Source: Marinifilum caeruleilacunae (GTDB taxonomy: Bacteria; Bacteroidota; Bacteroidia; Bacteroidales; Marinifilaceae). Taken from it: 64,000 nt of DNA. Positions 579 to 29,527 of this stretch are shown here, in pieces (position 1 is the stretch's first letter; the number at the start of each line of letters is the position of its first letter). The notes beneath the pieces were generated by a model. That model saw only the letters and a program-made list of their open reading frames with translations. It searched no databases and was not told where the DNA came from. The stretch lies in assembly GCF_013141825.1 (NCBI RefSeq), contig NZ_RZNH01000003.1:1-64000 (forward strand), in the 5' to 3' direction. Made by a program: the position numbers and the translations under genes.

Positions 579-1045
579 ATGAACAAAAAAATGAAAAAAG
601 CCTCAAATTTTGGGCTTATCAGGCAATTGCTAAAGTGTAAATTGCTACTTCTGTTTCTGCTCTATTCCTTTACGGGTTTGGGTGCGAATTTCAAGTCTCA
701 GCAGAGGTTTGCTGCCCCTCTACAAAAGGCAAGTGCAAAAGAGGTATACCAAACCATTACAGAACAAAGCAAATTACACAAGAAAACCATTAGCGGAAAG
801 GTTAGCGACAGCAATGGCGAGCCTTTGCCAGGAGTAACCGTTATTGTGAAAGGCACCACAAATGGGGTTATTACCAATATCGACGGTGCTTATGAATTGC
901 AAGTTGCTCCATCGGCAAAGCTACTCCACTTCTCCTTTATAGGAATGAAAGCCCAGGATATTGAAATTTCGGGGCGCAGCGCAATCGATGTCGTAATGGA
1001 AGAAGAGACGATTGGATTGGAAGAATTGGTTGTTATTGGATATGG
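313..1045. repeat. Duplicated SusC promoter/N-terminus block, copy A
   Basis: About 733 bp matching 13876-14608 at a constant offset of 13563 bp with no gaps noticed. It covers the last 266 bp before the SusC start codon and the first roughly 155 codons. Similarity fades just after the TonB-box-like VVIGYG segment; the plug and barrel that follow are clearly different proteins. Confidence 0.85.
428..483. promoter_or_regulatory. Tandem 18-bp repeats, candidate activator site (module A)
   Basis: The 18-mer GTCGATGCTCAGTATGCG occurs at 428-445 and 449-466, separated by TTC, giving a 21-bp period (two helical turns). A third, degenerate copy begins with GTCGAT at 470 after the spacer ATT. The same array lies at 13991-14046 upstream of the second SusC with one changed base in the first unit. 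Direct repeats two turns apart suit a dimeric or tandem-binding activator. No regulator gene is in this window, so the protein involved is unknown. Confidence 0.5.
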
Positions 1046-3896
1046 TACTCAGAAAAAAGAAAACTTAACAGGTGCAGTAGACCAAGTATCGGCCGAGGTA
1101 CTTAAGAATTCCCCAGTTGGTAGTATTGGAGAAGTATTACAAGGCCAAATGGCCAATGTAAATATTGGGATTGCAGATGGTAAACCAGGTCGAAATGCCA
1201 GTTTTAATATCCGAGGAATGACCTCGATCAATGAAGGAGATCCACTCATATTAATCGATGGAGTTCCTGGTGGGGATATCAATTCATTACCACCCCAAGA
1301 TATTGAAAGTGTGTCCGTATTAAAAGATGCAGCATCCGCAGCTATTTATGGAGGTAGGGCAACTTTCGGTGTCATATTGGTGACAACCAAGCAGGCTAAA
1401 AAGGGAAAATTCTCAGTTGATTATTCAAACAGTTTTTCATTTAGCAAACCAATCATCACTCCCGATGTTTATATGGGAAGTGATTATATGGAGGTACAAG
1501 AAGAGTTTAGTACCAATATTAATCAAACTTTTTTCACCTCCCAGCAAATTGATTACGCAAAACAAGTTGCCATTGATCCATCCCTACCTCATGCAAAATA
1601 TGAAAACGGGCAATTGTATTGTGGAGGAGAAGTTCACAACTATTACAAAGAGTGGTTCAGAGAATATACCCCAAAGCAACAGCATCACCTCGCCATAAGT
1701 AGCGGTGGAGAAAAACTTGACCTGTATACATCAGTTGATTATAACCATACAGAAGGTCCATTAAAATTGAGCCCTACAGTGATTGATAAGTATTACGTAC
1801 GTACCAATGCAAAATACACGGTAAGTGACGATTTCTCAATTTTCCAGAACATATCGTTCAGCAAAAAAAAGTCTGATATTCCTGATACTGACATCTATGC
1901 ATTTCAATCCAACATCTTTCGTTTCTTAGACTTTGTTTGGCCTATGATGCCTGAATATGTAGATGTTAATGGTGAAAAAGTTGCTACAAATACAGGTTGG
2001 ATGAGAGAATACCTGGGAGAAAAATCTTTCAGGTATGAAGACAAACGTAACCTTCGAAACACCTTCGGCTTTGATTGGTCACTTTTTAATGATGTTGTAA
2101 AAATTCATGGTGACTATACCTACGAAAACGTGAACTGGAATAAGGAACGCTTTCGTGATAATTCAGGACCTTTTATCGATAATATCGCAAGTAACAGGAA
2201 CAATATCATTCCAGCTCACCCAAAATTCAGCTCAGAATATTACCGATCCTCATATCGTATCACAAGGAATGTAGTTAACTTATACGGTTCAGTCGAGAAA
2301 AAATTTGAAGACCATTACTTTAAAGGCTTACTTGGTTTTAATCAGGAAGATTACGAAAAAACAAACTATTGGGCTAAAGTTGAGTCTCCCTTAAATATAC
2401 TTCCTGCAAGATCATTAAGCTTAGGAACGGGAATCCAAACTGCCGATGATGGTGACACTAGCAATGCCTTAAGAAGTGCCTTTTTTAGATTGAATTATAA
2501 CTTCAAAGAAAGGTATTTGTTAGAACTTAACGGGGCTTATTTTTTATCTTCTAAATTTTCAAAAAGCAAACGATCATCTTTACAACCTTCAGTTTCAGCT
2601 GGCTGGATCGTATCAAACGAAAAGTTTTTTGATCCACTTAGTGATGTTGTGAATCACCTTAAATTAAGAGCATCCTATGGAACTCTTGGGAATCAAAATA
2701 TCGGCTCGTTCGATTACCTGGAGAACATACCAATTGGGACATTGAATTATTTACTGAATGGTAACACTGTAAGTACAGCTACTAGTCCTAACCCTAAATC
2801 TTCAAATTTCACGTGGGAAAAGGTTACCACCGTAGACCTTGGGTTTGATATGCATTTGTTGCAAAATCGTATTACAACAACATTTGATTACTATCGAAGA
2901 ACAACAAGCGGTATGCTGGCAAAATCTTTTTCGCTGCCATCGGTTTTTGGAGCTCCTGTACCTAAAGAAAACAATGCTGAACTTTTGACCAAAGGCTGGG
3001 AAGTAAGTATCAATTATAAAAACAGGTTTGAATTAAAAGGAAAACCATTTCAGTATGGGTTCAGACTTTCAGTTTCGGACAACACCAGCGAAATTACCAA
3101 GTATAATAACCCAACCGGATATCTGGGAGATTATTACGAAGGGCAAAAGTTAGGTGAAATTTGGGGTTTAACTACTCTTGGCTTATTTAAAGATGACCAG
3201 GAAGCTGCTGCCTGGCCTACCAGCACAAGGTTTTATGCCTATAAAAAAGGTGGCATTAAAGCTGGAGATTTGAAGTTTGCAGATAAAAATAATGATGGGG
3301 TAATCAGTAAAGGAGAATGGACACTTGCTGATCATGGTGATTACACAAAAATAGGAAATGAAACACCTCGCTATCAATTTGGCTTTACAATGAATGCAAG
3401 TTGGAATAATTTCGATTTCAATGCATTCTTTAATGGTGTAGCAAAACGAGATTTTTATCCTGAAAAAGAAACCAACAATTTCTGGTCAGCCTATAACAGA
3501 AAGTATTCTGTATTGTTAGATCATGTTGTTAAAAACAGTTGGACAGAAGATAATCCCGATGCTTATTTCCCTAGACGAAGAGGTTATATCGCACAAGGCG
3601 GATATGAATTAGACATCCCACAAACAAGATATCTGCAAAATGGGGCTTATATGCGCTTAAAGAACTTAACTGTAGGTTACACTCTTCCTCAACACATTTC
3701 TCAAAAAATCAAATTAAAGAAACTTCGGGTTTACTTCAACGGACAAAACCTATGGGAAATTAGCAGCTTGAAAAAGCACTTACTTGATCCTGAGGGACTG
3801 GAAAGAGATCCAGATGCAAACTCAAGATATACAGGAAATGGTACTGCTTATTCTCTATCACGAGTGTATTCATTCGGGATTCAGGCAAACTTTTAA
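579..3896 (+). CDS. SusC/RagA-family TonB-dependent outer membrane transporter (module A)
   Basis: Outer membrane beta-barrel transporter that, with its SusD lipoprotein, imports oligomers using TonB energy. The 1105-residue length is usual for SusC. Seen in order: a hydrophobic signal segment (about 20-36), a carboxypeptidase-regulatory-like domain (about 70-145, with GEPLPGVTVIVKGT), a TonB-box-like ELVVIGYGTQ near 150, a plug, then the barrel ending in an aromatic terminus (IQANF). The usual SusC plug signature YGSRGANGVI appears as YGGRATFGVI. No complete STN domain is present, so signalling through an anti-sigma factor is not indicated. It lies 12 bp before its SusD. The first 155 residues are almost the same as in the SusC at 14142, while the rest has diverged. 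The substrate cannot be read from sequence; neighbours suggest a phosphodiester-containing molecule. Confidence 0.95.
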   Translation: MNKKMKKASNFGLIRQLLKCKLLLLFLLYSFTGLGANFKSQQRFAAPLQKASAKEVYQTITEQSKLHKKTISGKVSDSNGEPLPGVTVIVKGTTNGVITNIDGAYELQVAPSAKLLHFSFIGMKAQDIEISGRSAIDVVMEEETIGLEELVVIGYGTQKKENLTGAVDQVSAEVLKNSPVGSIGEVLQGQMANVNIGIADGKPGRNASFNIRGMTSINEGDPLILIDGVPGGDINSLPPQDIESVSVLKDAASAAIYGGRATFGVILVTTKQAKKGKFSVDYSNSFSFSKPIITPDVYMGSDYMEVQEEFSTNINQTFFTSQQIDYAKQVAIDPSLPHAKYENGQLYCGGEVHNYYKEWFREYTPKQQHHLAISSGGEKLDLYTSVDYNHTEGPLKLSPTVIDKYYVRTNAKYTVSDDFSIFQNISFSKKKSDIPDTDIYAFQSNIFRFLDFVWPMMPEYVDVNGEKVATNTGWMREYLGEKSFRYEDKRNLRNTFGFDWSLFNDVVKIHGDYTYENVNWNKERFRDNSGPFIDNIASNRNNIIPAHPKFSSEYYRSSYRITRNVVNLYGSVEKKFEDHYFKGLLGFNQEDYEKTNYWAKVESPLNILPARSLSLGTGIQTADDGDTSNALRSAFFRLNYNFKERYLLELNGAYFLSSKFSKSKRSSLQPSVSAGWIVSNEKFFDPLSDVVNHLKLRASYGTLGNQNIGSFDYLENIPIGTLNYLLNGNTVSTATSPNPKSSNFTWEKVTTVDLGFDMHLLQNRITTTFDYYRRTTSGMLAKSFSLPSVFGAPVPKENNAELLTKGWEVSINYKNRFELKGKPFQYGFRLSVSDNTSEITKYNNPTGYLGDYYEGQKLGEIWGLTTLGLFKDDQEAAAWPTSTRFYAYKKGGIKAGDLKFADKNNDGVISKGEWTLADHGDYTKIGNETPRYQFGFTMNASWNNFDFNAFFNGVAKRDFYPEKETNNFWSAYNRKYSVLLDHVVKNSWTEDNPDAYFPRRRGYIAQGGYELDIPQTRYLQNGAYMRLKNLTVGYTLPQHISQKIKLKKLRVYFNGQNLWEISSLKKHLLDPEGLERDPDANSRYTGNGTAYSLSRVYSFGIQANF

Positions 3897-3908: not shown

Positions 3909-5654
3909 ATGAAAAAATATTCAATTATAGTAATATTAGCATTTGTGGGGATCTTAAGCTCATGTAATGATGACTACCTAGAAAGATTACCGGAAACAAG
4001 CCCCACTAAGGAAACATTTTTCACCTCTGCCGAAGCCTTGGAATTGTATACCAATTCTTTTTATGGCTACTTATCCAAGAATGAATACGAGAATGATTAT
4101 CAAAGTGATAATATGGCCGAGCAATCTACACCCGAAGCTGTAAAAACAGGTTTATATTCTATGCCAGTAGAATTAGGTTCTGGAGGTTGGAAGTGGACAC
4201 AATTAAGAGACATCAACTATTTTATTGAAAACTGTAAAGCCTCCAAAGGTATTGCACAGGAAGACAAAGACAAGTATTTGGCTGTTGCCAGATTCTTTCG
4301 TGCCAGATTTTACTTTAGAAAAGTAAAACGCTTTGGTGATGTTCCCTGGTATTCTAAAGTATTAGGTTCAAATGATGAAGAATTGTACAAAGCCAGAGAT
4401 CCAAGAACAATGGTAATGGATTCGGTATTAGCCGATCTAAATTTTGCCGTTCAGCATGCCGAAGTAACCACTTCTAAAAACAGGGTAAACAAGTGGACGG
4501 CTTTGGCATTAAAGTCTAGAGTTTGTCTATACGAAGGAAGCTGGAGAAAATATCACACCGAAGCAGGTCTTGCTGATGCAGATAAATTTCTGACCGAAGC
4601 AGCAAATGCAGCAGGCGAAATAATAAACAGTGGGCTATATTCAACATACAACACAGGAAGCAGTAAAGATTACTACAATTTGTTTAATGCCGAAAAGGCT
4701 GATTCAGATGAAGTAATTATGGCCATTGATCTGGCTGAAGGTAACATTTCGAATTACAATAAAAGCTTTACAACTACTTCTGTGGGTAGAAGAGGCATTA
4801 CCAAATCACTGGTTCATGAATACCTGATGTCTAATGGAAATACTTTCCAATCAAAATATGCTGATGTTGAAACATTGCCATGGTATGATGAGTTTACAAA
4901 CCGTGACCCTCGTCTTGCTCAAACTTCGATGCCACCCAACTTTCACAGGATAGATGAAACGGCAATTGTGCTGCCCTGGTTTGGACAAAACCATACGGGT
5001 TACCAGGTTGTTAAAAGAGTTGGACCAGCAATATACGACAATGGCGATCCACGTGATATCATTGTATTCAGATTGGGTGAAGTTCTCCTGAATTATGCTG
5101 AAGCGCTTGCTGAATTGGGAACCATAACTCAAGCCGATTTAGACAAATCAATTAACGAGCTCAGAAAAAGAGTTCGAATGCCAAAACTAAGCTTAACTCC
5201 TGCTTTAGACTCCTATCTGGATGGACAGTATAAAAGCACCTCAAATCCACTCATCCTGGAAATTAGGAGAGAAAGACGAGTAGAATTGGCAATTGAAGGC
5301 TTTCGATTTGACGATTTGATGAGATGGAAAGAGGGACACTTACTTCGTGATAACGCAGAAGGCATTTATGTAACACTGAATACATATACCGACAGAGATC
5401 AGAATGGAGTTTTCGACTTGTATATCTATGATGGAAACAAGCCTTCGGATGCGGGAAGTTATCCAAAGGTAGATTTCTTCAAACTTGGCGATGCAATGTC
5501 TTTAAGCAATGGTGCAAATGGTAGGTTATTACCTTATAACAAAGCACTTCCCTCTTTTGGTGACTGGGAGTATTTATCGCCAATTCCTTTAGAAGAACTT
5601 ACACTTAATCCTAAGCTAAAACAAAATCCTGAATGGGAAAAAATTAATCCTTAG
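3909..5654 (+). CDS. SusD/RagB-family substrate-binding lipoprotein (module A)
   Basis: Surface lipoprotein that caps the SusC channel and binds substrate. The signal peptide ends in a lipobox with Cys19 (GILSSC). The mature protein starts with the SusD-type ETSPTKETFFTSAEALELY. Family landmarks include ARFFRARFYFRKVKRFGDVPW in the TPR-like region, and the C-terminal block RRERRVELAIEGFRFDDLMRW. At 581 residues it has normal length. It starts 12 bp after the SusC stop and ends 3 bp before the EEP enzyme, so these three genes are very likely co-transcribed and co-translated. Confidence 0.93.
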   Translation: MKKYSIIVILAFVGILSSCNDDYLERLPETSPTKETFFTSAEALELYTNSFYGYLSKNEYENDYQSDNMAEQSTPEAVKTGLYSMPVELGSGGWKWTQLRDINYFIENCKASKGIAQEDKDKYLAVARFFRARFYFRKVKRFGDVPWYSKVLGSNDEELYKARDPRTMVMDSVLADLNFAVQHAEVTTSKNRVNKWTALALKSRVCLYEGSWRKYHTEAGLADADKFLTEAANAAGEIINSGLYSTYNTGSSKDYYNLFNAEKADSDEVIMAIDLAEGNISNYNKSFTTTSVGRRGITKSLVHEYLMSNGNTFQSKYADVETLPWYDEFTNRDPRLAQTSMPPNFHRIDETAIVLPWFGQNHTGYQVVKRVGPAIYDNGDPRDIIVFRLGEVLLNYAEALAELGTITQADLDKSINELRKRVRMPKLSLTPALDSYLDGQYKSTSNPLILEIRRERRVELAIEGFRFDDLMRWKEGHLLRDNAEGIYVTLNTYTDRDQNGVFDLYIYDGNKPSDAGSYPKVDFFKLGDAMSLSNGANGRLLPYNKALPSFGDWEYLSPIPLEELTLNPKLKQNPEWEKINP

Positions 5655-5657
5655 AAA

Positions 5658-6572
5658 ATGATGATGAGAACTTTATTACTAATATTTACTATTACACTAA
5701 CAGTATTTGCATCTGCTTGTGACAAAGGCAGTCCTGGAGGCGAAAAACCAGAACCTCCAAGCCCTCAGCCCTCTTCTTCCTCTGATTTTATAAATGCGGC
5801 CAGCCTTAATATAAGGTACAGTAATAATACCGATGGTATAAATAATTGGGATCACCGCAAGCAATGGGTAGTCGACTTTATCTATTTTTTTGATATTGAT
5901 CTAATTGGATTACAGGAAGAAAAAAACGATCAAACGGCTGAATTGAGAACACTTTTATCCGCTGATTATGGAATGATCGGTAAAGCAAGCAGCTCTCAAC
6001 CAGGTTATGAGTACAATGGCATCTATTATAAAACCGAAAATATTGAACTTTTGGAATCTGGACGTTTTTGGTTATCCGAAACACCAGATGTTGAAAGTGT
6101 TGGTTGGGATGCAAAATATCACCGCCAGGTTACATGGGGGAAATTCAGGCATAAAGCAAGCAACAATGAGTTTTATTTTTTTAACACCCATTTTTCGCAT
6201 GTTGGTGAAACTGCTAGAGAGAATAGTGCCATACTACTAAAAAATAAGATTAAATCCATTGCAAAAGGAGCTGCTGTGATTGCTACTGGCGATTTCAATT
6301 TACGCCCTAACTCATCATCATACAACATTCTTACCCAAGACTCTGATTCAGCCAAAAAACTAAGCGAAGGAAGAATTCTGGTAGATCGTCCATACAATGC
6401 GTTGTGTACAGGCCATTGTTTCGGAACATGCTATAAGGTTGGCAAGATTGTAGACTACGTCTTTGTCAATGACAAAATTGATGTTGAGAAATATGGAATC
6501 TTAACGGAACAAAGAGAAGGTGTTTTCCTGTCTGATCATTATCCTATTTTGACACGATTACGCTTTAAATAA
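5658..6572 (+). CDS. Endonuclease/exonuclease/phosphatase (EEP) family lipoprotein
   Basis: A metal-dependent phosphodiesterase or phosphatase of the DNase I-like fold, probably on the cell surface or in the periplasm. A lipobox ending SAC puts the lipid anchor on Cys21. EEP motifs are complete: SLNIRYSN near residue 50, LIGLQEE with the metal-binding Glu87, NTHFSH, GDFN (Asp212, Asn214) and the terminal SDH (Asp293, His294). Members of this family cleave nucleic acids, sphingomyelin and inositol phosphates, so the exact substrate is open; surface anchoring and neighbouring GDPDs favour a lipid- or phosphodiester-linked substrate over DNA (inference). Three consecutive ATG codons at 5658, 5661 and 5664 are all possible starts. 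Confidence 0.88.
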   Translation: MMMRTLLLIFTITLTVFASACDKGSPGGEKPEPPSPQPSSSSDFINAASLNIRYSNNTDGINNWDHRKQWVVDFIYFFDIDLIGLQEEKNDQTAELRTLLSADYGMIGKASSSQPGYEYNGIYYKTENIELLESGRFWLSETPDVESVGWDAKYHRQVTWGKFRHKASNNEFYFFNTHFSHVGETARENSAILLKNKIKSIAKGAAVIATGDFNLRPNSSSYNILTQDSDSAKKLSEGRILVDRPYNALCTGHCFGTCYKVGKIVDYVFVNDKIDVEKYGILTEQREGVFLSDHYPILTRLRFK

Positions 6573-6643: not shown

Positions 6644-7786
6644 ATGAAAGCTAATATAAATAGATCAATAATCTACTACATTTTTATAGTAATGCTTATC
6701 AGTTGCGATAAGTCAGATGATATCCCTTTGGACACCACTCCCCCGGCAGAAGTTACAAATCTAACTGCAAGCGCGGGTGATTCAAAAGTGGTATTAGAAT
6801 GGACCGAGCCTTCAGACCAGGATTTTGCCCAGGTACAAATCACATTTACTCCTGAGAATAATCTGGTACAACCCATACCATTAAGCCCTGGATTCCCAAC
6901 CAAAGAATTTTCTGGTTTAGAAAATGGGGTTGAATATACTTTCACAATCCAAACTGTAGATTCGACTGCAAATAAATCGACAGGAGTAAGTGTAAAGGCA
7001 ACTCCTGTTGAACCAGTTGTTGAAGAGCCAACCGAGATGGTTGATGAAAGAGATGGCAAGCGTTATAAAATTGTAAAAATTGGAGAACAGGTTTGGATGG
7101 CTGAGAATCTTGCTTACCTGCCTACCGGAGCAAGTTTATCGGCTAACAATGTAGGTAGCAATAAATCCAATTTCACAAAACACTATTATGTATATGGACT
7201 AGATAATGGAGGAAGCATGGCTGATGTGAATGCAAACCCTGCTGTAAAAGAGAACTTCGATAAATATGGTGTAATGTATAACTGGTTTGCAGCCATTGAC
7301 ATACCAAGTACTGTAACAGATACAACAACGCTTAAAACATACCTTGAATCATCAGCTACCCTACAAGGAATTGCTCCAAAAGGATGGCACGTACCAACCG
7401 ATGAAGACTTTAAAGTTCTTGAAGCTACATTGGGTATGAGTGAAGAAACACAGGACAAGACCAGTTACAGAAACGATAACTCGGAGGGAATGAAGCTGAA
7501 ATCAGAAACAGGTTGGAAAGAAGATTCAGGAACAGATGAGTTTGGTTTTGCCTTATTACCAAGTGGACGTTGGAAGAAAGACAAGTTCCAGTTCCTGACA
7601 GAATATGGATACCTATGGACATCTTCTCTTAGCCATTTCAAGAGCAAAACCGATGCTAATGGTGATGAATATTTTGAAACCAGGGCATGGTTACGATATG
7701 TAAAATACAACAACAATGGTGTTGGACGTGCCAATTGGGAACATTTTAATGGTTATGCCATTCGATGTGTGAAAGATAGCGAGTAA
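6644..7786 (+). CDS. Fn3-like + FISUMP-domain lipoprotein
   Basis: Predicted surface lipoprotein: the signal peptide ends at Cys21 (VMLISC). Residues about 34-125 form a fibronectin type III-like domain beginning TTPPAEVTNLTAS, often used as a spacer. The remainder fits the FISUMP domain (Fibrobacter succinogenes major paralogous domain) by its hallmarks KIGEQVWMAENL, KYGVMYNWFAA, PKGWHVPTDEDF, FALLPSGRW, LWTSS and a final AIRCVKD. FISUMP proteins are common surface proteins of Bacteroidota and Fibrobacter with no settled enzymatic role, so a surface-binding or adhesion function is only inferred. In module B the matching slot holds a PQQ-propeller lipoprotein, which suggests both act as accessory substrate-binding proteins. 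Confidence 0.85.
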   Translation: MKANINRSIIYYIFIVMLISCDKSDDIPLDTTPPAEVTNLTASAGDSKVVLEWTEPSDQDFAQVQITFTPENNLVQPIPLSPGFPTKEFSGLENGVEYTFTIQTVDSTANKSTGVSVKATPVEPVVEEPTEMVDERDGKRYKIVKIGEQVWMAENLAYLPTGASLSANNVGSNKSNFTKHYYVYGLDNGGSMADVNANPAVKENFDKYGVMYNWFAAIDIPSTVTDTTTLKTYLESSATLQGIAPKGWHVPTDEDFKVLEATLGMSEETQDKTSYRNDNSEGMKLKSETGWKEDSGTDEFGFALLPSGRWKKDKFQFLTEYGYLWTSSLSHFKSKTDANGDEYFETRAWLRYVKYNNNGVGRANWEHFNGYAIRCVKDSE

Positions 7787-7859: not shown

Positions 7860-8780
7860 ATGAATAAGATATTATTGGTTTTATCACTTGCAATATCATG
7901 CTTTGCTTGTTGTACAGAATGCAAGAAGAATGATGATAAAGTTAAAAATAAGGATACATCAGTCTTACTGGATGAGTATGTAAATGGAAGTAATGTTTTG
8001 GTCATAGCGCATCGGGGCGATTGGAGAAATGCTTGCGAAAATTCCATTCTCGCCATCGAAAATGCCATTAAAATGGGCGTTGACATTGTGGAAATAGACC
8101 TTAAGAGAACTTCAGACAAGCAATTGATTTTAATGCACGACCATACTCTGGACAGGACGACTACCGGCTCTGGTAAAGTAAAAGATCACACACTGAAAGA
8201 GATACAGGAGCTTTTTTTAAAAGACGGAGCAGGACACCGAACAGAGTTCAAGATTCCAACTTTAAAGGAAGCCCTATTAAGCACCAAGGGCAAAATATTG
8301 GTCAACCTGGATCAGTCCTACAAGTATTTCGAAGAGGTTTTACCGATTCTGAAAGAAACCGGGACAATGAATCAGGTGATTATGAAAGGCTATAACGTGC
8401 CCATTGAAGAGGTAAAAAGTAAGCTGGGTGTTTTCTACGACTCTATTCAATATATGCCGATTATAAAATTGGGTGCAAAGGGCTACAAAGAAAGAGTTTT
8501 GGAAGTAAAGAAGAATCATTTCGAGGCCGTCGAATTTACTTTTACTTCCGACACCATTCCTACGGTTCATGAGTTTTTTGATTTTCAAGAAAAAGGCACA
8601 CGAGTATGGGTAAATTCTTTATGGTCGCATCATAACTCTGGACATCACGACGACAGAGCCTATACCGAAAATCCTGATGTTGCCTACGGTTGGTTGGTTT
8701 CAAAAGGAATTAATATGATACAAACCGATCGTCCCCAATTGCTTTTAGAATACCTACGCTCCAAAGGCTTGCATCAATAA
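7860..8780 (+). CDS. Glycerophosphodiester phosphodiesterase (GDPD) lipoprotein, small type, module A
   Basis: Hydrolyses glycerophosphodiesters to sn-glycerol 3-phosphate and an alcohol, or a related phosphodiester. The GDPD TIM-barrel motif set is complete: HRGDW (His51, Arg52), the metal-binding Glu60 in ACENS, EIDL (Glu78, Asp80), LMHD (His93, Asp94), and DRTTTGSGKV. The C-terminus has the typical IQTDRPQLLLEYLRSKG. A short signal peptide has lipobox candidates at Cys14 and Cys17, so export and lipid anchoring are likely. The closest relative in the window is the GDPD at 21606, which has the same C-terminal YLRSKGLH. A hairpin lies on each side of the gene. Confidence 0.93.
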   Translation: MNKILLVLSLAISCFACCTECKKNDDKVKNKDTSVLLDEYVNGSNVLVIAHRGDWRNACENSILAIENAIKMGVDIVEIDLKRTSDKQLILMHDHTLDRTTTGSGKVKDHTLKEIQELFLKDGAGHRTEFKIPTLKEALLSTKGKILVNLDQSYKYFEEVLPILKETGTMNQVIMKGYNVPIEEVKSKLGVFYDSIQYMPIIKLGAKGYKERVLEVKKNHFEAVEFTFTSDTIPTVHEFFDFQEKGTRVWVNSLWSHHNSGHHDDRAYTENPDVAYGWLVSKGINMIQTDRPQLLLEYLRSKGLHQ

Positions 8781-8794
8781 GCGATAAAACCTCT

Positions 8795-8824
8795 ATGAAA
8801 GGCATGAAAACTTATGCCTTTCAT
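8795..8824 (+). terminator. Perfect 11-bp intercistronic hairpin (module A)
   Basis: ATGAAAGGCAT and ATGCCTTTCAT form a perfect 11-bp stem with an 8-base loop. There is no T-run after it. The same hairpin, with the same arms, is at 22489-22518 in module B, in the same gap between a small GDPD and a fibre-like gene. Confidence 0.6.
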
Positions 8825-8902
8825 ACTTCAATAAAATACAACTAACCAATTATTTTTTAATCTAAAACGATTCGAATATGAAAACACAAAAAACATTAAC
8901 AC
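8795..8902. repeat. Conserved leader patch, module A copy
   Basis: About 108 bp, nearly the same as 22489-22595. It contains the hairpin, an AT-rich spacer ending TTTTTTAATCTAAAA, GATTCGAAT just before the start codon, and the first eight codons of the fibre-like gene (MKTxxTLT). The genes on either side are much less similar between modules. Confidence 0.75.
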
Positions 8903-13271: not shown

Positions 13272-13307
13272 AGTAGTCTATGTAAGGTGCATAGAGAAAA
13301 ACGAGAA

Positions 13308-21605: not shown

Positions 21606-22472
21606 ATGCAAAATTTATTAACTGAGAGATATTTGTTAGGGATTGGGATTGTGCTACTTGCAAGTCTATGCCTTAATTCCTGTAAGCAGAATGAATCGAC
21701 AATCGAAAAAATTGAGTCTCGTTCGAAAAGCGAAGTCTTGGTTTGCGCCCATAGGTCTTTCCATAAAAATGCTCCTGAAAACTCCATGCAATCTATTTTG
21801 GATGCCATTGATGCAAAAGTAGATATTGTTGAAATTGATGTTCGCACAACAATAGACGATAGTCTTGTTTTAATGCACGATAAAACCATAGACAGGACCA
21901 CTACAGGCAAAGGAAAATTAAAAGATTTCACCTACCAGGAATTGCAGGCTTTCCAATTAAAAATGGGCGATTCTGTTACCACACACAAAATTCCGACACT
22001 TTACCAGGTTATGATCAAGTTGAAAGACAAACCTAATACAATCGCTAATCTTGACCTGAAAGGTGTTCAACCAGAACATTTAATCAAAAAACTAAAGGAA
22101 TGGGGCGTGGTACACCAGGTAATAAGCTATACAGGCTCTCAAAAAAAGACCATGGCAATTCTTAAAGAAGACTCCTTGTATGCTGCTATGCCCTTAATTA
22201 AAAAAGATGAGGATATTCTGTTTTATAAAGAACATATGAGTTCTCCCTTTATACATTTTACCGATTCAACATTTACAGAAAAAAATGTAAGACTGGCAGT
22301 AAAGAACAGGCAGTTGGGCTTTGTAAATATCCTTTGGAATCAGGACAAGGATCTTGTAAAAGGTGACTTTTCTTCGGTTGATAAAGTGATTGCCTTACGA
22401 CCTGCCATTATTCAAACCGATCATCCCAAATTATTGGTGGATTACCTAAGGTCAAAAGGATTGCATCGATAA
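21606..22472 (+). CDS. Glycerophosphodiester phosphodiesterase (GDPD) lipoprotein, small type, module B
   Basis: 288 residues. Probable lipoprotein (Cys26 in CLNSC). GDPD motifs: CAHRSFH (His49, Arg50) with Ser instead of Gly, APENS, IVEIDV, LMHD, DRTTTGKGKL, IANLDLKG, and the C-terminal IIQTDHPKLLVDYLRSKGLH. It is the paralogue of the GDPD at 7860, including its C-terminus and the hairpin that follows it. Both should cut glycerophosphodiester-like substrates outside the cytoplasm. Confidence 0.92.
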   Translation: MQNLLTERYLLGIGIVLLASLCLNSCKQNESTIEKIESRSKSEVLVCAHRSFHKNAPENSMQSILDAIDAKVDIVEIDVRTTIDDSLVLMHDKTIDRTTTGKGKLKDFTYQELQAFQLKMGDSVTTHKIPTLYQVMIKLKDKPNTIANLDLKGVQPEHLIKKLKEWGVVHQVISYTGSQKKTMAILKEDSLYAAMPLIKKDEDILFYKEHMSSPFIHFTDSTFTEKNVRLAVKNRQLGFVNILWNQDKDLVKGDFSSVDKVIALRPAIIQTDHPKLLVDYLRSKGLHR

Positions 22473-22488
22473 TTTACAAACATACAAA

Positions 22489-22595
22489 TGAAAGGCATGA
22501 AAGCTTATGCCTTTCATACTTCAATAAAATACTATTAAGCAAATATTTTTTAATCTAAAATGATTCGAATATGAAAACACGACAAACATTAACAC
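22489..22595. repeat. Conserved hairpin/leader patch, module B copy
   Basis: Counterpart of 8795-8902. The perfect 11-bp hairpin (arms 22489-22499 and 22508-22518) is kept, together with the AT-rich spacer and the first codons of the next gene. One base is missing in the spacer relative to module A. Confidence 0.75.
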
Positions 22596-23806
22596 AATTA
22601 ACTGTTGGCATCATCTTTCTTTTTTGTACTAACATGCTTTCAGCTCAAGTCGTCTTAGATATCACTAATGCAAACGATCATGATGCATATACTTATCGTA
22701 AAAATCAGAACTCTATGTCATGGGTATTGGATAGTGACGACAGTGGAATAGGTGCAGGATTCAGATGGTGGCGCGATGGTGGGCGTTATAAACAGACGCT
22801 AATGATGCGACTAAGCGATAATGGAAACCTTGGAATAGGACGTGGACCATCATTAAATCCGGAAGAAACTTTACATGTTAGTGGTAACTTAAAATTAGAT
22901 TGTTACGGTCCTGACGGAAAAGAAGGAAACATTAAAGGGGTAGATGCACTTGTCGGATATAATGATATCAGGTTCTATAGCACTCTAGCTAGTTATGAGG
23001 CAAGCCCCGATGTGGGGGCGCGCATGTTTCTGAGTGCAGATGGAAAACTTTCAATTGGAATGGGAGAACGACAACCGGATGAAAAATTACATGTTTATGG
23101 CAATATAAAATTAGATGGCGATAACAGTCAAGGAGACATTAGTGGTATTGATGAAATTAAGGGGCATGATGATCTTCGCTTTTCAGGAAATCCAAATGCA
23201 GAAAATCAAATGTACCTATCCTCCGATGGTAAATTGGGAATAGGATGTATACCTACGGTAGCTTTTGATGTGGTTGGACAAGCCAGATTTGTTCGAAATG
23301 AAGTTGAAATATGTATTTCAAACAACAAAAATCACAATCAAGGTTGGATAGGAACAAAGTCAAAACATAATTTAAATTTAGGCACAAGGGGCACCGCAAA
23401 CATTCTTTTAGACACTCTTGATAATGTTGTTATAGGCGGTAATCTTTCAAGAACCATAAATGACCGTCTTTTAAGCTCATACAGCCTATTTGTAAGCGGT
23501 GGAGGTATCCTGTCTGAAGACCTTGCAATAGCTTCCGCAAGCAATTGGGCAGATCATGTTTTTTCCGAAGATTACGATTTAAAACCTTTAGAAGAAATTA
23601 ATGCGTTTATTGAAGAAAATGGCCACTTGCCTAATATTCCTTCTAAGCAAGAGGTAGAGAAGGAAGGGTATTCCGTACATGATATGAATGTTCGTTTTTT
23701 AGAAAAAATCGAGGAGTTAACACTTCATATCATCAAACAGGAAGAAAAAATAAAAGCCATGAGTACACAGCTAAATGAACTTAATGCGAAATTAAATCAG
23801 GAATAA
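22571..23806 (+). CDS. Secreted fibre-like protein with Bacteroidota S74/tail-fibre-type C-terminus (module B)
   Basis: 411 residues. Signal peptide ends in MLSAQ. The body has repeated segments: LHVSGNLKLD ... GNIKGVDALVGYNDIRFYS and LHVYGNIKLD ... GDISGIDEIKGHDDLRFSG, each followed by MFLSADGKLSIG or MYLSSDGKLGIG, a typical beta-helical fibre pattern. The C-terminus has VFSEDYDLKPLEEINAFIE, GHLPNIPSKQEV, FLEKIEELTLHII and a coiled coil. It shares its first residues and C-terminal pattern with the protein at 8878 but has more repeats. Its stop overlaps the start of the next gene (TAATG), so it is translationally coupled to the large GDPD. Confidence 0.75.
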   Translation: MKTRQTLTQLTVGIIFLFCTNMLSAQVVLDITNANDHDAYTYRKNQNSMSWVLDSDDSGIGAGFRWWRDGGRYKQTLMMRLSDNGNLGIGRGPSLNPEETLHVSGNLKLDCYGPDGKEGNIKGVDALVGYNDIRFYSTLASYEASPDVGARMFLSADGKLSIGMGERQPDEKLHVYGNIKLDGDNSQGDISGIDEIKGHDDLRFSGNPNAENQMYLSSDGKLGIGCIPTVAFDVVGQARFVRNEVEICISNNKNHNQGWIGTKSKHNLNLGTRGTANILLDTLDNVVIGGNLSRTINDRLLSSYSLFVSGGGILSEDLAIASASNWADHVFSEDYDLKPLEEINAFIEENGHLPNIPSKQEVEKEGYSVHDMNVRFLEKIEELTLHIIKQEEKIKAMSTQLNELNAKLNQE

Positions 23807-25548
23807 TGCTTATAAATAATTATACAAATACGAAAATTAGAAGAGTTGTATATTGTTTTTTGCCTATATACCTGTTCTTATCTTTATCAATCTCATTCAG
23901 TCAGAGGCATTCGTATTCCTCCCCGGTAACATTAACGGGTAACAATGTTCCAATAGAGGACATGATAAAGTTAGATTATAAAGCACTTTATAATCTGGAC
24001 TATGATATGTCCGAAGGGATTATTGGTCTTACAAATGGAGGGCGAATAGATGTTAGAGTTTACGACTATGACCCATCACAAACAAATGGTAAAGGAGTTG
24101 CTATTTACGGGATATATATTACCGAAAATTCTCCTGACTCCTACAGCGAAAATCATATAAATGCACAGGTTGTATTATCGGGAGCCAATATCGATCAATT
24201 TAATATTGAAGCAGCTGGTAATGATATCAAAAAACGGGCCCAGGATGCAAGGGTGTATAGTCCCGGTCAATGTAATTTAGATTCCTGGACTGATACTTTT
24301 TTATCAATATGGTTTAATGATTGTGTTGGCAATTATGCACCTCCGGTTCAACCCGTGGTGGTAGAAGTAATAAGTTCAGCAAATGCTGAATTTATTAAAG
24401 CAAAAATCCCGGGTATTGGAATCATTAGTATTGATGATCAGAACATTGTAAGACGCCAGGCTGTTGCAAGTTTTTATGATTACTGCGAGGATCATGCTAA
24501 CACTCCACTTTGCCAATTGTTTCACAAAATTATGAATCCCAGCGATGACATCGATGAGGAGGATATTCTTATTGCTGCTCACAGAGGGTGGTGGGGATAC
24601 AATATGGGCGATGGAGATCCTGAAAATACCCTTGCTTCTTTAATTGCCGCACAGGAACAAAAAGGCATTAACATTGTTGAGATGGATGTTACTACAAGTG
24701 CAGATCATCAATTGGTATTGATGCATGATTATGTGATGAGTCGATTAACCAATTATACAGGCAATGAATTCTCTTTTCAATTGCCATGGTTGACCATGAG
24801 TCAATATAAAGTGCGAAAAAGAAACGAAAGTGTGAGTGATTTACCCTTAACACAATTCTCAGAAGTACTTTCTGAAGTTCATCACAGAAGTATGATCTTA
24901 ATGCTTGATATCAAAGAGTTAATAAGCAAAAAAACAGGAAACCAGTGTACTGCAAATTGTGATTTCCAAACCAAGGAACAAAAAAACAGAAGTTGGGTTC
25001 AAATTCTGCGTCAGAGCATTCGCCAGGCTGAATCATTAAATGCAAAAAAGAACTTAATCATTAAAACCTATTTTCACTATGATGATTTGTATGGGTTAAT
25101 TGGCAATCAGGTAGGAAATCTACTTTGGACACCAATGATTGTTCCCAATAACTTTAAAAATGAACACAAGCAACCGGATATTCAATTAATGGCTGATTTT
25201 ATCGATTCCTGGAATACCCCGGAGAATCAGCACATTGTTGCCTGTTTTGAAACCAATTTTTTTAGAGAAGATGATGTAATGTTACAACCTTTTACACGTA
25301 ACGGACACCATTACGATAATTTATTGCATTACATCTATGCCACAACAGGGAAACGTAGTGGGATATTTTCAGAAGAGCCTGTCGGTCCAAAAGGAACCGT
25401 TAACAGGTGGGGGGATTGGAAGGTGAAAGATGGCACTAATGACATCCGTGGTGATCATTTTAAACTGATGTCAGTTCCCTATGCCAATAAAATGTTAATT
25501 ACATCCGACCGATTGGATGTATGGCAGGAAATACAAAATATATTCTAA
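23806..25548 (+). CDS. Large secreted GDPD-family protein (module B)
   Basis: 580 residues; signal peptide roughly 1-32 (LSLSISFSQ). The N-terminal region (about 35-230) is related to that of the large GDPD at 9857 (AIYGIYIT ... VVVEVISS ... IKAKIPGIG). The GDPD domain follows: AAHRGWWG (His259, Arg260), DPENT, IVEMDV, LMHD and a final TSDRLDVW. The Asn-Tyr-rich segment after the HD motif replaces the common DRTT. It begins at a TAATG overlap with the fibre gene and ends at another TAATG overlap with the T9SS-tagged gene, so these three are made together. Confidence 0.88.
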   Translation: MLINNYTNTKIRRVVYCFLPIYLFLSLSISFSQRHSYSSPVTLTGNNVPIEDMIKLDYKALYNLDYDMSEGIIGLTNGGRIDVRVYDYDPSQTNGKGVAIYGIYITENSPDSYSENHINAQVVLSGANIDQFNIEAAGNDIKKRAQDARVYSPGQCNLDSWTDTFLSIWFNDCVGNYAPPVQPVVVEVISSANAEFIKAKIPGIGIISIDDQNIVRRQAVASFYDYCEDHANTPLCQLFHKIMNPSDDIDEEDILIAAHRGWWGYNMGDGDPENTLASLIAAQEQKGINIVEMDVTTSADHQLVLMHDYVMSRLTNYTGNEFSFQLPWLTMSQYKVRKRNESVSDLPLTQFSEVLSEVHHRSMILMLDIKELISKKTGNQCTANCDFQTKEQKNRSWVQILRQSIRQAESLNAKKNLIIKTYFHYDDLYGLIGNQVGNLLWTPMIVPNNFKNEHKQPDIQLMADFIDSWNTPENQHIVACFETNFFREDDVMLQPFTRNGHHYDNLLHYIYATTGKRSGIFSEEPVGPKGTVNRWGDWKVKDGTNDIRGDHFKLMSVPYANKMLITSDRLDVWQEIQNIF

Positions 25549-26576
25549 TGAAAAGCGACATGATTAACTTAAGAAAAAGCATATTGGTTATAATTTTTGC
25601 TGTATTTGCTTTATTTAGCCATGCACAATATTTAACTCCCGAATATAGAACAGTATATACTGCCGATGGAGGTAGCCTTCCAAATAATAATGCTGTAGAT
25701 TTTGAACAAGAAGTAAGGAGTTTTACAGGCGATGGATTTGCGGTTTACATAGAACCTTCCAAGCTTAAGCCATTACCTTCACCTCAGCAAACAAGTACGC
25801 AAATTCCACTTTATGAACTTCGTGTAAATGATCAGGTTATTTTAAGGGTATCTGTTTTAGACAGAACACTTGTTTTAGAACGATACTGGTCAGCCAACAG
25901 CTTTATTCACTATCCTCTGTTCGATGAGTTATTTGTTTTTCCTGAACAGAATGGCGAGGCAGGTATGTTTTATGATGTTACCCTATATTTTACAGCCAGT
26001 TTTATTTGGGTAGAAACCAAGAAACACAACTCGGAGGAGTCAATTTTTGTGAAACACTCGCCCTTGTTTTGGGGGCTGAACTTTGGAAGGAACTCTTACA
26101 TGAGTAACTTCTTAAATCGAGATAGAGCAAGTATACATTTTTTTACAGACCCTGCCTGGGAAGATGTTAAAATTTATGATTTTGATACTGCCAGTTTGGT
26201 AAATGATATCCAACAACACTTCTGCAAAGGACTTCCTAGAACTGCCGCAGCTGCAAGAATGAAAAGCAGTGTTCTAAACATAGAAAATATTGCTGAAGAA
26301 ACAGCTTCTGAGCAAGATTTGACAGGAAATCCCGGAACTCTAAAAGTTTACCCCAACCCCACCGATGGAGAAGCCTATATCGAATTTCCGAACCCCAAGA
26401 ATACAACTTATCAATTACAGGTGGTACATGCTGGAACATCGAGTGTGGTTTACTCCAACGATCAGGTAAGTGGAAACCGGGTAATCGTAGACCGCAAGTA
26501 CATCCAGTCTTCGGGTCTTTACATTATCATACTAAGAGGTGAGCAAACCTACAAAGCGAAGTTAATTGTGAAATAA
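25548..26576 (+). CDS. T9SS-tagged surface protein, module B
   Basis: 342 residues from the ATG at 25548, which overlaps the preceding stop codon; in-frame ATGs at 25521 and 25560 are alternatives. The signal peptide ends in FSHAQ. Residues 28-250 are less regular than the LamG-like partner in module A, yet DPAWEDVKIYDFDTASL resembles the closing strand of such jelly rolls, so a diverged carbohydrate- or ligand-binding fold is likely. The C-terminal 82 residues are a T9SS type A sorting domain nearly the same as that at 13023-13271. Predicted to be exported through T9SS. Confidence 0.8.
   Translation: MKSDMINLRKSILVIIFAVFALFSHAQYLTPEYRTVYTADGGSLPNNNAVDFEQEVRSFTGDGFAVYIEPSKLKPLPSPQQTSTQIPLYELRVNDQVILRVSVLDRTLVLERYWSANSFIHYPLFDELFVFPEQNGEAGMFYDVTLYFTASFIWVETKKHNSEESIFVKHSPLFWGLNFGRNSYMSNFLNRDRASIHFFTDPAWEDVKIYDFDTASLVNDIQQHFCKGLPRTAAAARMKSSVLNIENIAEETASEQDLTGNPGTLKVYPNPTDGEAYIEFPNPKNTTYQLQVVHAGTSSVVYSNDQVSGNRVIVDRKYIQSSGLYIIILRGEQTYKAKLIVK
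26328..26576. repeat. Near-identical T9SS tag block, module B copy
   Basis: Counterpart of 13023-13271 (offset 13305 bp); only two amino-acid changes are seen over the sorting domain (K/Q in SNDxVSG and I/V in RVIxDRK). Confidence 0.85.
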
Positions 26577-26590
26577 AAGTACGATAGCAT

Positions 26591-26633: not shown

Positions 26634-27806
26634 ATGAAAATAGTTATTACATTGTTATTAGGAGTTTTGAGTGTTTATAGTGTAAATGCTCAAATTGCTG
26701 TAATTCCATTTGATTTAAAGGATGGAATGATATTTCTAGATGTAAAAGTTAATGATAAAACAGAAGCCAGAACATTTATTTTTGATTCTGGCGCAGTTAC
26801 CGACGTAATAGATAGTACAATTGCAAATCAATTACATTTAAAAGGTGATTATAAACTAGAGGTTTCCGGTGCGAGTGGTAAAAAAGCACATGATGTTATT
26901 TTGAATCAAAAGATAAGACTTCAAAATAACATCGAAATAGACAGCACCCATTTGGTTCTTGCCAACTTAGAAAAACTACGTGCGAAAATCGAGCGTAATT
27001 TTGATGGAATTATGGGCTATAGTTTACTTCGGAAGTACATTACAAAAATTGATTATGAAAATCGGAAATTAGAGTTGTATCATAAAATTCAAAATGTGGA
27101 TACACTTGACTATACAGCGATACCCTTTGTGTTTGATAATGGAATTCCAATACCCCAATTCGATATTTCTTTTACATTAAGAAATGGAGAGTCATTTACG
27201 GGTAAGATTTTATTTGATAGTGGTGCATCCTTAACTCTATTCATAAACACTCCTTATAACATACATCACAATATTATCGGAAAATCTGACAAAAGTTTCA
27301 TATCAACATCCGAAAACATATACGGAGAGACAATTTTTAATAATGTTGCAATTCAATCATTAAATATCTGTGGATATGACTTGGGTGAAATGATTATTCC
27401 GATATCACAAGATAAAAATGGGATCAGTAGTCATAAAGATTACCTGGGTCTCCTGGGAGCAAAAGTGATTAGTAGGTTTCATGTAATTTTAGATTACTCA
27501 TCCTTTACCTTATACTTAAAGCCAAATCGTAAATTCAGTACCCCTTTTGAGTTTCCAACTAGTGGGATAAAACTTAAAATGAAGAATGATTGCATTACTG
27601 TAGATCAGGTGGCGAAGATCAGTCCTGCTTATCAAAAAGGAATTCGAAAAGGAGATCAGTTATTATCAGTTAATAAAGATTTATCGGGTAATATCGATAC
27701 TTACCGAACCCTATTGAAAAAAGAAGGCCAGAAAGTGCACTTAGAAATTCTAAATTCAGAGGGGGAAACAAAAACCATAAGAATTAAATTAGAACGGCTG
27801 TTGTAA
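26634..27806 (+). CDS. Retropepsin-like aspartyl protease with PDZ domain
   Basis: 390 residues with a cleaved signal peptide (ending VNAQ). Two aspartyl protease half-sites are seen: FIFDSGAVTD (Asp51) and ILFDSGASLT (Asp195), each with the D-S/T-G core, as in two-lobed retropepsin-like proteases of Bacteroidota. A PDZ domain (about 310-375, AKISPAYQKGIRKGDQLLSVN) may bind a substrate or C-terminal peptide. Such proteins are widespread and poorly characterised. It lies 57 bp after module B and may be a neighbour only; involvement in processing the secreted proteins is possible but has no direct evidence. Confidence 0.85.
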   Translation: MKIVITLLLGVLSVYSVNAQIAVIPFDLKDGMIFLDVKVNDKTEARTFIFDSGAVTDVIDSTIANQLHLKGDYKLEVSGASGKKAHDVILNQKIRLQNNIEIDSTHLVLANLEKLRAKIERNFDGIMGYSLLRKYITKIDYENRKLELYHKIQNVDTLDYTAIPFVFDNGIPIPQFDISFTLRNGESFTGKILFDSGASLTLFINTPYNIHHNIIGKSDKSFISTSENIYGETIFNNVAIQSLNICGYDLGEMIIPISQDKNGISSHKDYLGLLGAKVISRFHVILDYSSFTLYLKPNRKFSTPFEFPTSGIKLKMKNDCITVDQVAKISPAYQKGIRKGDQLLSVNKDLSGNIDTYRTLLKKEGQKVHLEILNSEGETKTIRIKLERLL

Positions 27807-27928: not shown

Positions 27929-29527
27929 ATGAAAATTATAAAAAAGAAGGTTATACTCCTGTTCAGGCTGGCACTTGGCTTTGCAATCTTTCTAAACCTG
28001 GCCTCCTGCACCAAAGCAAAACAAGAATACAAGCGTCCAAATATTTTAGTCGCCATAATGGACGATGCCAGCATGGAACACATTGGAGCCTATGGTTGCC
28101 AATGGGTGAATACACCAAGTATGGATCGACTGGCCACAAACGGTATTCTGTTTTCCAATGCCTATACGCCCAATGCCAAATGCGCACCATCCAGAGCTTC
28201 TATTCTAACGGGGCGCAATTCGTGGCAGTTGGAATCGGCAGCAAATCATTATTGCTACTTCCCCAATAAGTTTAAAACCTATTCTGAAGCCTTGGCCGAA
28301 AAAGGCTATCATGTTGGATATACTGGCAAAGGCTGGGCTCCCGGCGTGGTAGGGAAAGTGAATGGCAAAAAAAGAAAACTTACCGGGAAATCGTATAACA
28401 AGATTAAAAAAAGCCCGCCTACCACATCGATCAACAAAACCGATTATGTGGCAAACTTTATCGAGTTCCTGGATTCCAGAAAAGAAGGAAGCCCCTTCCT
28501 CTTTTGGTTTGGCTCAAAAGAACCACACCGTTCCTACGAATATGGATCGGGAATCAGCAAAGGAGGCAAGAAAAAATCTGATATTGATAGTGTTTACTCT
28601 TTCTGGCCCGACTGCGATACAGTAAGAACCGATTTGCTCGACTATGCATTTGAAATTGAGTATTTCGATACTTGTTTGAACAAAATTATCGATGAATTGG
28701 AAAAAAGGAATGAGTTGGAAAATACACTGATTGTGGTGACTTCGGACAATGGAATGCCTTTCCCCAGGATCAAAGGTCAGGAGTATGAATTTTCAAATCA
28801 TATGCCCTTGATTGTAATGTGGCCAAAAGGAATTAAGAGGCCAGGAAGAAGGATTGACGATTTTATCAGCTTTATTGATCTTGCTCCTACCTTTCTCGAA
28901 TTGGCAGAAATTCCCGAAAGTGAAAGCGGCATGCAAGCCATTACGGGAAAAAGCCTGACATCCATATTTTACTCCAGGAAAGAAGGAGTGATTGATACCC
29001 AAAGAAATCATGTATTAATTGGAAAAGAGAGACATGATGTGGGTCGCCCGCATGATTGGGGATATCCCATTCGGGGAATCCGAAAAGGAGATTACCTCTA
29101 CATTCATAATTTTGAACCTTCGCGTTGGCCTGCTGGAAATCCGGAAACGGGTTACCTGAATTGCGATGGAAGCCCTACAAAAACCATTTGCATCGACACA
29201 AAAGATCGCGACAGCACACAACAATACTGGCAATGGTCGTTTGGAAAAAGAGCTGAATATGAATTGTATGATGTAAAAAATGACCCGGAATGCATGACTA
29301 ACTTGTACAAAGACAGTGCATACCGATCGATTGCCAATCTATTGCAGTCGCAGCTGATTAAAGAATTGACAGAACAGCAAGGCCCACGTATATTGGGACA
29401 CGGAGAGGTGTTCGATACCATAAAATACGCGAAACCTTCGAATCGTAATTTTTACGAAAGATATCAGAACAAGGAAGCGATGGAAGCGGGTTGGGTGAAT
29501 TCCAGTGATTTTCAAAAAATGCCATAA
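27929..29527 (+). CDS. S1-family sulfatase lipoprotein (formylglycine Cys type)
   Basis: 532 residues. Lipobox at Cys27 (NLASC). The alkaline phosphatase-superfamily fold begins [13 protein letters not shown], giving the metal-binding Asp45/Asp46. The sulfatase signature is present as [12 protein letters not shown] with Cys85, Pro87, Ser88 and Arg89; Cys85 would be converted to formylglycine by an anaerobic (radical SAM) maturase not found here. Further marks: [16 protein letters not shown]. The overall layout recalls the heparan N-sulfatase-like branch, but substrate assignment is uncertain. In this locus it may remove sulfate from the same substrate that the GDPDs attack, or act on its own. 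Confidence 0.9.

Follow-up and report, generated by a model that had tools for sequence, protein, structure and literature searches.

Two SusC/SusD pairs encoded together with five GDPD-family proteins in Marinifilum caeruleilacunae: a probable glycerophosphodiester utilisation locus

The window, that is, the whole stretch of DNA analysed (64,000 nucleotides of Marinifilum caeruleilacunae), has its base 1 at the start of the contig. Family scans covered its open reading frames (ORFs) up to 33 kb. Between positions 579 and 29527, the plus strand has 18 ORFs with a length of 120 amino acids or more (Table 1). This single strand carries two SusC/SusD pairs, five glycerophosphodiester phosphodiesterases (GDPDs), an EEP enzyme, and a sulfatase, and the locus appears to consist of two related units. 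The gene order in unit 1 is SusC1-SusD1-EEP-FISUMP-GD1-Fiber1-GD2-T9a. Unit 2 reads SusC2-SusD2-GD3-Prop-GD4-Fiber2-GD5-T9b and is followed by the genes for an aspartyl protease and a sulfatase. The genes named in an earlier note on this DNA are all ORFs at the coordinates given there, and the sulfatase and both SusC/SusD pairs reported in it were recovered with matches above cut-offs (TIGR04056 and PF07980 for the pairs).

Table 1. Features of the locus in order of position. Names such as GD1 or T9a are working labels.
Feature	Position	Strand	Basis and remarks
SusC1 upstream region	313..578	+	TCGAT boxes at 429, 450, 471 (21-bp period)
SusC1, SusC/RagA TonB-dependent outer-membrane transporter	579..3896	+	TIGR04056, 834 bits (cut-off 368)
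SusD1, lipoprotein lid	3909..5654	+	PF07980, 147 bits (cut-off 23)
EEP-family hydrolase, lipoprotein by eye	5658..6572	+	PF03372, 38.9 bits (cut-off 24.5)
FISUMP protein, Fn3 + FISUMP lipoprotein	6644..7786	+	Domain matches
GD1, GDPD + DUF4996, lipoprotein by eye	7860..8780	+	PF03009; best solved relative 3i10
Fiber1, tail-fibre-like protein (by eye)	8878..9831	+	Paralogous to Fiber2
GD2, large GDPD	9857..12085	+	N-terminal ~370 aa without Pfam match, then PF03009
T9a, LamG-like + type IX sorting domain	12054..13271	+	Both just under Pfam cut-offs; overlaps GD2 end
SusC2 upstream region	13876..14141	+	95% identical to 313–579; boxes at 13992 (TCGGT), 14013, 14034 (TCGAT)
SusC2	14142..17393	+	TIGR04056, 893 bits (cut-off 368)
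SusD2	17413..18825	+	PF07980, 128 bits (cut-off 23); PF14322, 103 bits
GD3, PKD + GDPD, lipoprotein by eye	18856..19956	+	PF03009; adjoins Prop-like genes in several relatives
Prop, PKD + PQQ-like beta-propeller lipoprotein	20039..21541	+	Domain matches
GD4, GDPD, lipoprotein by eye	21606..22472	+	PF03009
Fiber2, tail-fibre-like protein	22571..23806	+	Relatives in L096, L116, L130
GD5, large GDPD	23806..25548	+	PF03009; identity to two proteins of L116 30% and 38% (aligned parts)
T9b, type IX sorting domain	25521..26576	+	N-terminal part resembles proteins of L116 and L130
Retropepsin-like aspartyl protease + PDZ, membership uncertain	26634..27806	+	Pfam
Sulfatase-family protein, membership uncertain	27929..29527	+	148.8 bits (cut-off 25); C-A-P-S-R motif by eye

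Pfam-based annotation (E ≤ 0.001) of the 18 locus ORFs named no glycoside hydrolase or polysaccharide lyase and, as the earlier note had also stated, no phosphate-uptake family; Pho regulator families and the gene of a GlpT-family organophosphate antiporter (OPA) were likewise not found among these ORFs. The locus thus has the SusC/SusD pairs of a polysaccharide utilisation locus (PUL), two of them, without the carbohydrate-active enzymes (Pfam, 18 ORFs). The co-localisation of SusCD with phosphomono- or phosphodiesterases, by which phosphate utilisation system (PUS) loci are recognised, is present (five GDPDs and one EEP protein).

All five GDPDs matched PF03009 above the curated cut-off, and no other match to this family (E ≤ 0.001) was found in the genome of 5.27 Mb. 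The His-Arg, Glu-x-Asp, and His-Asp motifs, the catalytic residues of the family, were read from all five sequences, as originally claimed, and are invariant in the alignments made for GD1, GD2, and GD5. The cut-offs of the GlpQ/UgpQ-type equivalogs NF008354 and NF006989 were missed, the best score being 79.5 bits versus 264 (GD3); GD2 had no NCBIfam match. Residues 43–305 of GD1 match the solved structure 3i10 (E 5.9e-73), which is a GDPD only putatively, by its entry name, and names no substrate for GD1. The GD2 query matched eight of 295 genomes of the order, its own included, the other seven solely within the GDPD part, and one scan of genome contigs gave no GD2 relatives. A single pairwise comparison related its N-terminal region to a protein of locus L096 (27% identity over 145 aa, E 5e-7). 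By eye, GD2 and GD5 seemed likely to be homologous in their N-terminal regions; this is not claimed here, as a profile comparison gave a probability of 3%. A phosphodiester-glycosidase-like domain, suspected by eye at the end of the large GDPD of L096, matched nothing in Pfam or among solved structures at E ≤ 1. AlphaFold2 modelling of GD5 and five relatives gave a mean pLDDT of 56.6.

The EEP domain of the protein at 5658 agrees with the earlier note, which had called it a phosphodiesterase. Its solved relatives include mannosyl-6-phosphatase 4c1r (E 2.5e-38), and the protein may therefore be a phosphomonoesterase instead of acting on diesters. The type IX sorting domain scores 22.9 (cut-off 23) with TIGR04183 and 26.6 (cut-off 27) with PF18962 in T9a, and 24.3 and 26.5, respectively, in T9b. 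The LamG or concanavalin-like match is sub-threshold and occurs in one locus ORF. An acidic run after the lipidated cysteine is a motif rule for surface exposure of lipoproteins. Such a run, read by eye, follows shortly after this cysteine in SusD1, SusD2, GD3, Prop, and the FISUMP protein, which suggests that they are surface-exposed; GD1, GD4, and the EEP protein have none so near to it. The sulfatase gene is the last on the plus strand before a minus-strand gene, and the protein may not belong to the system.

Sequence exchange between the two units shows in their DNA, with identities of 93% (313–1045 vs 13876–14608), 97% (13022–13272 vs 26327–26577, the sorting domain), and 82% (8715–8906 vs 22407–22599). 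Their proteins include diverged paralogues, with identities of 35% for SusC and 22% for SusD; GD1 is 34% identical to GD3 or GD4. An inverted repeat of 34–35 bp (13389–13423/13539–13572) suggested an invertible promoter 5' of SusC2. This idea was rejected because the element recurs as a MITE-like repeat would, with three further copies in the genome (86–89% identity over ~180 bp) and partial ones. The TCGAT element precedes SusC1, SusC2, and the gene of the OPA transporter described below. As a marker of a regulon it was also rejected: the genome contains the pattern at 26 sites, 22 of them exact (at contig ends, two pairs could each represent a single site), with mixed genes downstream. The orientation of the element is not evidence, since the scan covered the own-strand downstream side only. 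Four genomes of the same genus contained no TCGAT element, and 6 of 34 other genomes of the family gave matches with two mismatches only.

The genome encodes one strong match to the OPA family (C2:29606-30973), which is unlinked to the locus; the next candidate is 21% identical (E 7e-6). The strong match is near full-length to GlpT/UhpT/PgtP models and to the GlpT structure. Its best solved relative is the glycerol 3-phosphate (G3P):phosphate antiporter GlpT of E. coli (1pw4, E 1.2e-55), with which it aligns two arginines and a histidine that we take to be the substrate site of GlpT. It scores below the cut-offs of the GlpT equivalog TIGR00712 (236 bits vs 633) and of the PgtP equivalog (266 bits vs 408), so that G3P is the likely rather than the proven substrate. 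By eye, two GlpK homologues were found at C95 together with homologues of GlpF and GlpD, and the C-terminal domain of GlpD exceeds its cut-off there.

The distribution of the locus within the genus, as judged from five other genomes, is patchy. Close GDPDs occur in one of these genomes only (G330, 80% complete), where the order is ECF-FecR-SusC2-SusD2-GD1-GD1-OPA (sigma and anti-sigma factors by eye) and the transporter is 71% identical to that of M. caeruleilacunae. Three other genomes have one distant GDPD each, and one has none at E ≤ 1e-8.

The survey of 295 genomes of the order, own genome included in both counts, revealed GD1 matches in 20 and SusD1 matches (E ≤ 1e-20) in 46. Gene maps were made for 22 stretches, which together include each of the 24 GD1 places found outside the own genome, and for 18 further SusD1 places taken from near the top of the SusD1 list, of which they form a part. 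SusCD beside a GDPD was seen repeatedly in these maps. Ten loci were of the GD1 type; six of them have SusCD and four do not, and in four (L055, L056, L058, and L059) a transporter of the GlpT/UhpT/PgtP family lies beside the GDPD. Locus L055, for example, reads ECF-FecR-SusC1-SusD1-GD3-Prop-GD1-OPA (sigma and anti-sigma factors by eye), and L058 reads SusC1-SusD1-EEP-DUF5689-GH3-esterase-GD1. In contrast, the 12 loci with other GDPD types contain SusCD in no case and OPA in one; at a looser threshold, a SusCD pair appears in L074 and a SusC beside a SusD-like ORF in L064. None of the 18 SusD1-relative loci has a GDPD or an OPA gene, and five have an EEP gene. Other loci, too, are thus served by SusD1-type lids, and SusC1-SusD1-EEP can occur without a GDPD. 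The marker of the system is the GD1-type GDPD, not the SusD1 lid. As SusCD1 and the EEP type co-occur without GDPDs, they may belong to a glycan system, and unit 1 may serve a glycan.

For named genomes, an alignment of 11 GD1-type proteins was used as the query. The best 80 of at least 516 confirmed matches fell in 79 loci, and removal of a duplicate (L142) left 78 distinct loci with 1000 ORFs counted. These loci were picked by GD1 sequence, their counts are raw, without the background rate of random genes, and the set overlaps that from the order (L059 is L165, L057 is L170). The earlier note had proposed a search for the same design in other Bacteroidota. Among these best matches, SusC plus SusD were present in 47 of the 78 loci, and a same-strand SusD lay at most four genes upstream in 41; the other 31 loci have no SusC+SusD pair in the stretch examined, and some of them end at contig ends. 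OPA genes (E < 1e-60) were detected in 26 loci, 17 of which also have SusCD. Twenty-four of the 26 OPA genes lie at most two genes from a GDPD, and the remaining two (L131 and L135) belong to the six loci without any GDPD call. At least two GDPDs occur in 22 of the 78 loci, a propeller protein in 16, an MBL-type protein in 8, GH92 in 6, and EEP and sulfatase in 4 each.

Runs of SusC-SusD-GDPD-OPA were found in Bacteroides, Phocaeicola, Aquimarina, Aestuariivivens, and others within this set of best matches; Mucilaginibacter, Sphingobacterium, Chryseobacterium, Maribacter, and others have SusC-SusD-GDPD with no OPA linked to it. GDPD relatives were also seen in MAGs labelled KSB1 and Opitutaceae. 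Among the matches listed, the gene set of the window appears closest to that of L116 from Bacteroides stercorirosoris: SusD1-GD3-Prop-GD5-GD5-T9b-like-LamG-Fiber2-GD1-OPA, with SusD1 cut by the end of the stretch. GD3, Prop, the large GDPD, the T9b-type protein, and Fiber therefore occur together in another genus. L114 from Phocaeicola intestinalis has the order ECF-FecR-SusC1-SusD1-GD3-Prop-GD1, a 128-aa ORF, and OPA (sigma and anti-sigma factors by eye). In L130, a short Dysgonamonadaceae contig without SusCD, Prop-GD1-GD5-T9b-Fiber2 is followed by GD1-OPA; the large GDPD there includes its own type IX sorting domain, below threshold (22.4 bits vs 27).

The recurrence of the SusCD-GDPD and GDPD-antiporter linkages in relatives supports the claim of the earlier note that the locus is devoted to phosphodiesters, with SusC+SusD in 47 and OPA in 26 of the 78 GD1-relative loci (best 80 of at least 516 matches). 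This support is partial: it does not extend to the substrates proposed in that note or to the membership of unit 1, which is doubtful. We consider it probable that this is a glycerophosphodiester utilisation locus, which imports its substrate, releases G3P, and takes up G3P mainly as carbon. At the surface, SusD1, SusD2, GD3, Prop, the large GDPDs, T9a, and T9b would bind and partly cut a substrate bearing glycerophosphodiesters, and the SusCD pumps would import the pieces. GD1, GD4, and the EEP enzyme would finish the reaction in the periplasm, yielding G3P and an alcohol. At the inner membrane, the unlinked GlpT-family antiporter would swap G3P for phosphate, and GlpD would oxidise G3P in the cytoplasm. 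We infer the enzyme locations, the direction of flow, G3P as the product, and carbon as the goal. Against this reading counts the antiporter itself, which is encoded outside the window and scores under the equivalog cut-offs. The 31 GD1-relative loci without a SusC+SusD pair, the SusD1-relative loci without GDPD, the patchiness within the genus, and the SusCD pair of L074 among the other GDPD types also speak against it.

Members of the GlpT family exchange G3P for phosphate, and in E. coli the G3P imported by GlpT is a carbon source and a poor phosphorus source. The gain would thus be mainly carbon. Carbon had been named as a possible goal before, and the recurring GlpT-family partner and the GlpK and GlpD homologues (by eye) strengthen this idea; loci that carry PhoD or EEP phosphatases may use phosphorus. 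The presence of SusCD suggests that the substrate exceeds a free head group, for instance glycerophosphocholine, in size. Because the extra enzymes vary (GH92, GH3, GH65, GFO/IDH/MocA, sugar-isomerase-like barrels, PhoD, and MBL-type proteins), the alcohol part probably varies from locus to locus.

Some of these extra enzymes bear on a possible, if rather doubtful, alternative, in which the locus is a glycan locus after all. The imported compound would be a glycan carrying glycerophosphate as decoration or bridge, the GDPDs would do no more than remove the decoration, and the sugar enzymes would be encoded elsewhere; teichoic-type polymers, phosphoglycerol-substituted sugars, and GPI-like anchors are candidates. 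Three of the six GH92-containing loci among the 78 (best 80 of at least 516 matches), namely L141, L148, and L167, have this gene inside the SusCD-GDPD run, and GH92 is also present in L054. Furthermore, GH3 was found in L058, GH65 with a GFO/IDH/MocA protein (the latter by eye) in L162, and sugar-isomerase-like barrels in L143 and L156. The relationship of the EEP protein to a mannosyl-6-phosphatase, the EEP genes in 5 of the 18 SusD1-relative loci without GDPD, and the LamG-like domain and the sulfatase that accompany the GDPDs point the same way. However, no glycoside hydrolase was named by Pfam in the window locus, and L125 and others have SusC-SusD-GDPD-OPA with none of the glycosidase queries used matching beside it, their neighbours being partly identified. 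The absence of glycosidases stated in the earlier note thus holds for the window locus and not for those relatives with GH92, GH3, or GH65 in the run.

Starvation-induced phosphate scavenging, in which phosphate would be stripped from organic phosphodiesters, is an unlikely explanation, even though it is how the closest known system, PusCD and the PUS loci of Flavobacterium, behaves (PMC8115612). In F. johnsoniae, induction of two SusCD complexes that are encoded alongside phosphodiesterases or a phosphatase is confined to phosphate depletion (PMC8115612). PUS loci and the window locus both encode SusCD with phosphodiesterases or phosphatases in place of glycoside hydrolases, and some PUS clusters have inner-membrane organophosphorus transporters, comparable to OPA in the relatives of the window (PMC8115612). 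The enzymes differ: PUSI has two phosphodiesterases that belong to other families and are predicted to be periplasmic, PUSII has a PhoA, and the window locus has GDPDs, and the strings pf03009, UgpQ, and GlpT are absent from the main text of that paper (PMC8115612), which weakens the parallel. Induction by phosphate depletion was shown experimentally for PUS (PMC8115612), whereas the window locus is known from its genes. PhoD or EEP phosphatase genes in some relative loci would suit phosphate scavenging. The lack of phosphate-uptake and Pho regulator families among the 18 ORFs does not, and neither does the recurring transporter: it belongs to the OPA family, in which GlpT gives up phosphate with every G3P imported. 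Finally, many bacteria use GDPDs as housekeeping enzymes, and SusCD pairs abound in Bacteroidota, but a chance neighbourhood of SusCD and GDPDs serving the turnover of the cell's own lipids is highly improbable, given that SusCD accompanies GDPD in 47 of the 78 loci (best 80 of at least 516 matches), which come from many genera, that accessory genes are partly shared, and that all five GDPDs of the genome lie in the locus.

Classical PULs resemble the glycerophosphodiester utilisation locus proposed here in SusCD, surface lipoproteins, and operon-like gene order, as well as in the ECF/FecR genes upstream of several relatives (by eye); unlike them, the window locus has phosphodiesterases and no CAZyme recognised by Pfam. 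The design is already known from PUS loci, and what differs are the GDPDs and, in relatives, the GlpT-family antiporter. In B. thetaiotaomicron, the SusCD pair BT4724-25 has the GDPD-family protein BT4727 nearby (PMC10434189), a likeness to the window locus at the level of annotation. As far as that source could be consulted, they are table or list entries for which no function is proposed, placed in the lowered-gene table of an iron study with p values of 2E-05 to 0.152 and 0.053, respectively (PMC10434189). The tags BT4724, BT4725, and BT4727 occurred in no other open-access paper searched, where tags inside printed ranges would escape. No description of SusCD-GDPD as a system was found in the open-access literature searched, which is not proof of absence.

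A broader reading is quite tentative: SusCD-GDPD loci, whether or not a GlpT-family antiporter is linked to them, would form a phylum-wide nutrient class for polymers of the poly-glycerophosphate or glycerophospho-glycan kind. Speculative examples are phosphoglycerolated glycans of hosts and algae and the teichoic-type polymers found in Gram-positive bacteria. If this were true, Bacteroidota would eat the phosphodiester polymers of other organisms via pumps viewed as glycan importers. If the loci work in the way proposed for the window locus, glycerophosphodiester-based compounds would be a second class of large molecules eaten through SusCD pumps. SusCD systems are usually classed by their CAZymes, and SusCD-GDPD loci are therefore easily overlooked. 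Named isolates with such loci exist for testing.

Two pairs of paralogues within the locus share patches of near-identical DNA and have diverged elsewhere. One patch covers the start of the two SusC genes (313-1045 versus 13876-14608), and the other covers the type IX sorting domain of ORFs T9a and T9b (13022-13272 versus 26327-26577). Judged from the sequence, this is the pattern that gene conversion would leave.

Repeats and genes in and beside the locus.
Feature	Window position	Strand	Remarks
MITE-like element	13389-13572		~180 bp; inverted ends 34-35 bp
TCGAT-box element	425-485 and 13988-14048		dispersed element; three TCGAT-type boxes, 21-bp spacing, end TCGATATCGCT
PorV2-type protein	30452-31516	-	NF052325, 505 bits (cut-off 325); just right of locus
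CDP-alcohol phosphatidyltransferase	31641-32384	+	just right of locus

The TCGAT-box element is represented by 26 pattern sites across the genome, one copy of which lies upstream of the only strong match to OPA, the GlpT-family organophosphate antiporter; no sites were found in four same-genus genomes. The element may be bound by a regulator, or it may be a repeat specific to this species. Three further genomic copies of the MITE-like element (86-89% identity) were detected, together with partial copies. Further right in the window, 33949-35013 and 36108-37151, both located inside adjacent minus-strand ORFs, share 64% DNA identity.

Among the loci fetched from other genomes, L177, from a same-genus genome, contains a PagL (lipid A 3-O-deacylase) family gene (11494-12702) downstream of its SusCD-GDPD-GDPD-OPA cluster. 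OPA-type transporter genes are also carried by two loci, L108 and L135, that were retrieved around a GD1-type GDPD match and on whose fetched stretches no SusCD was called; these originate from MAGs labelled KSB1 and Opitutaceae, labels that may reflect mis-binning. A lipoprotein, orf355, recurs near GDPDs in L140, L143, L147, L150, L154, L156, and L165 (the same locus as L059). Its HIHADH motif, recognized by eye, leads us to suspect a metallo-beta-lactamase fold.
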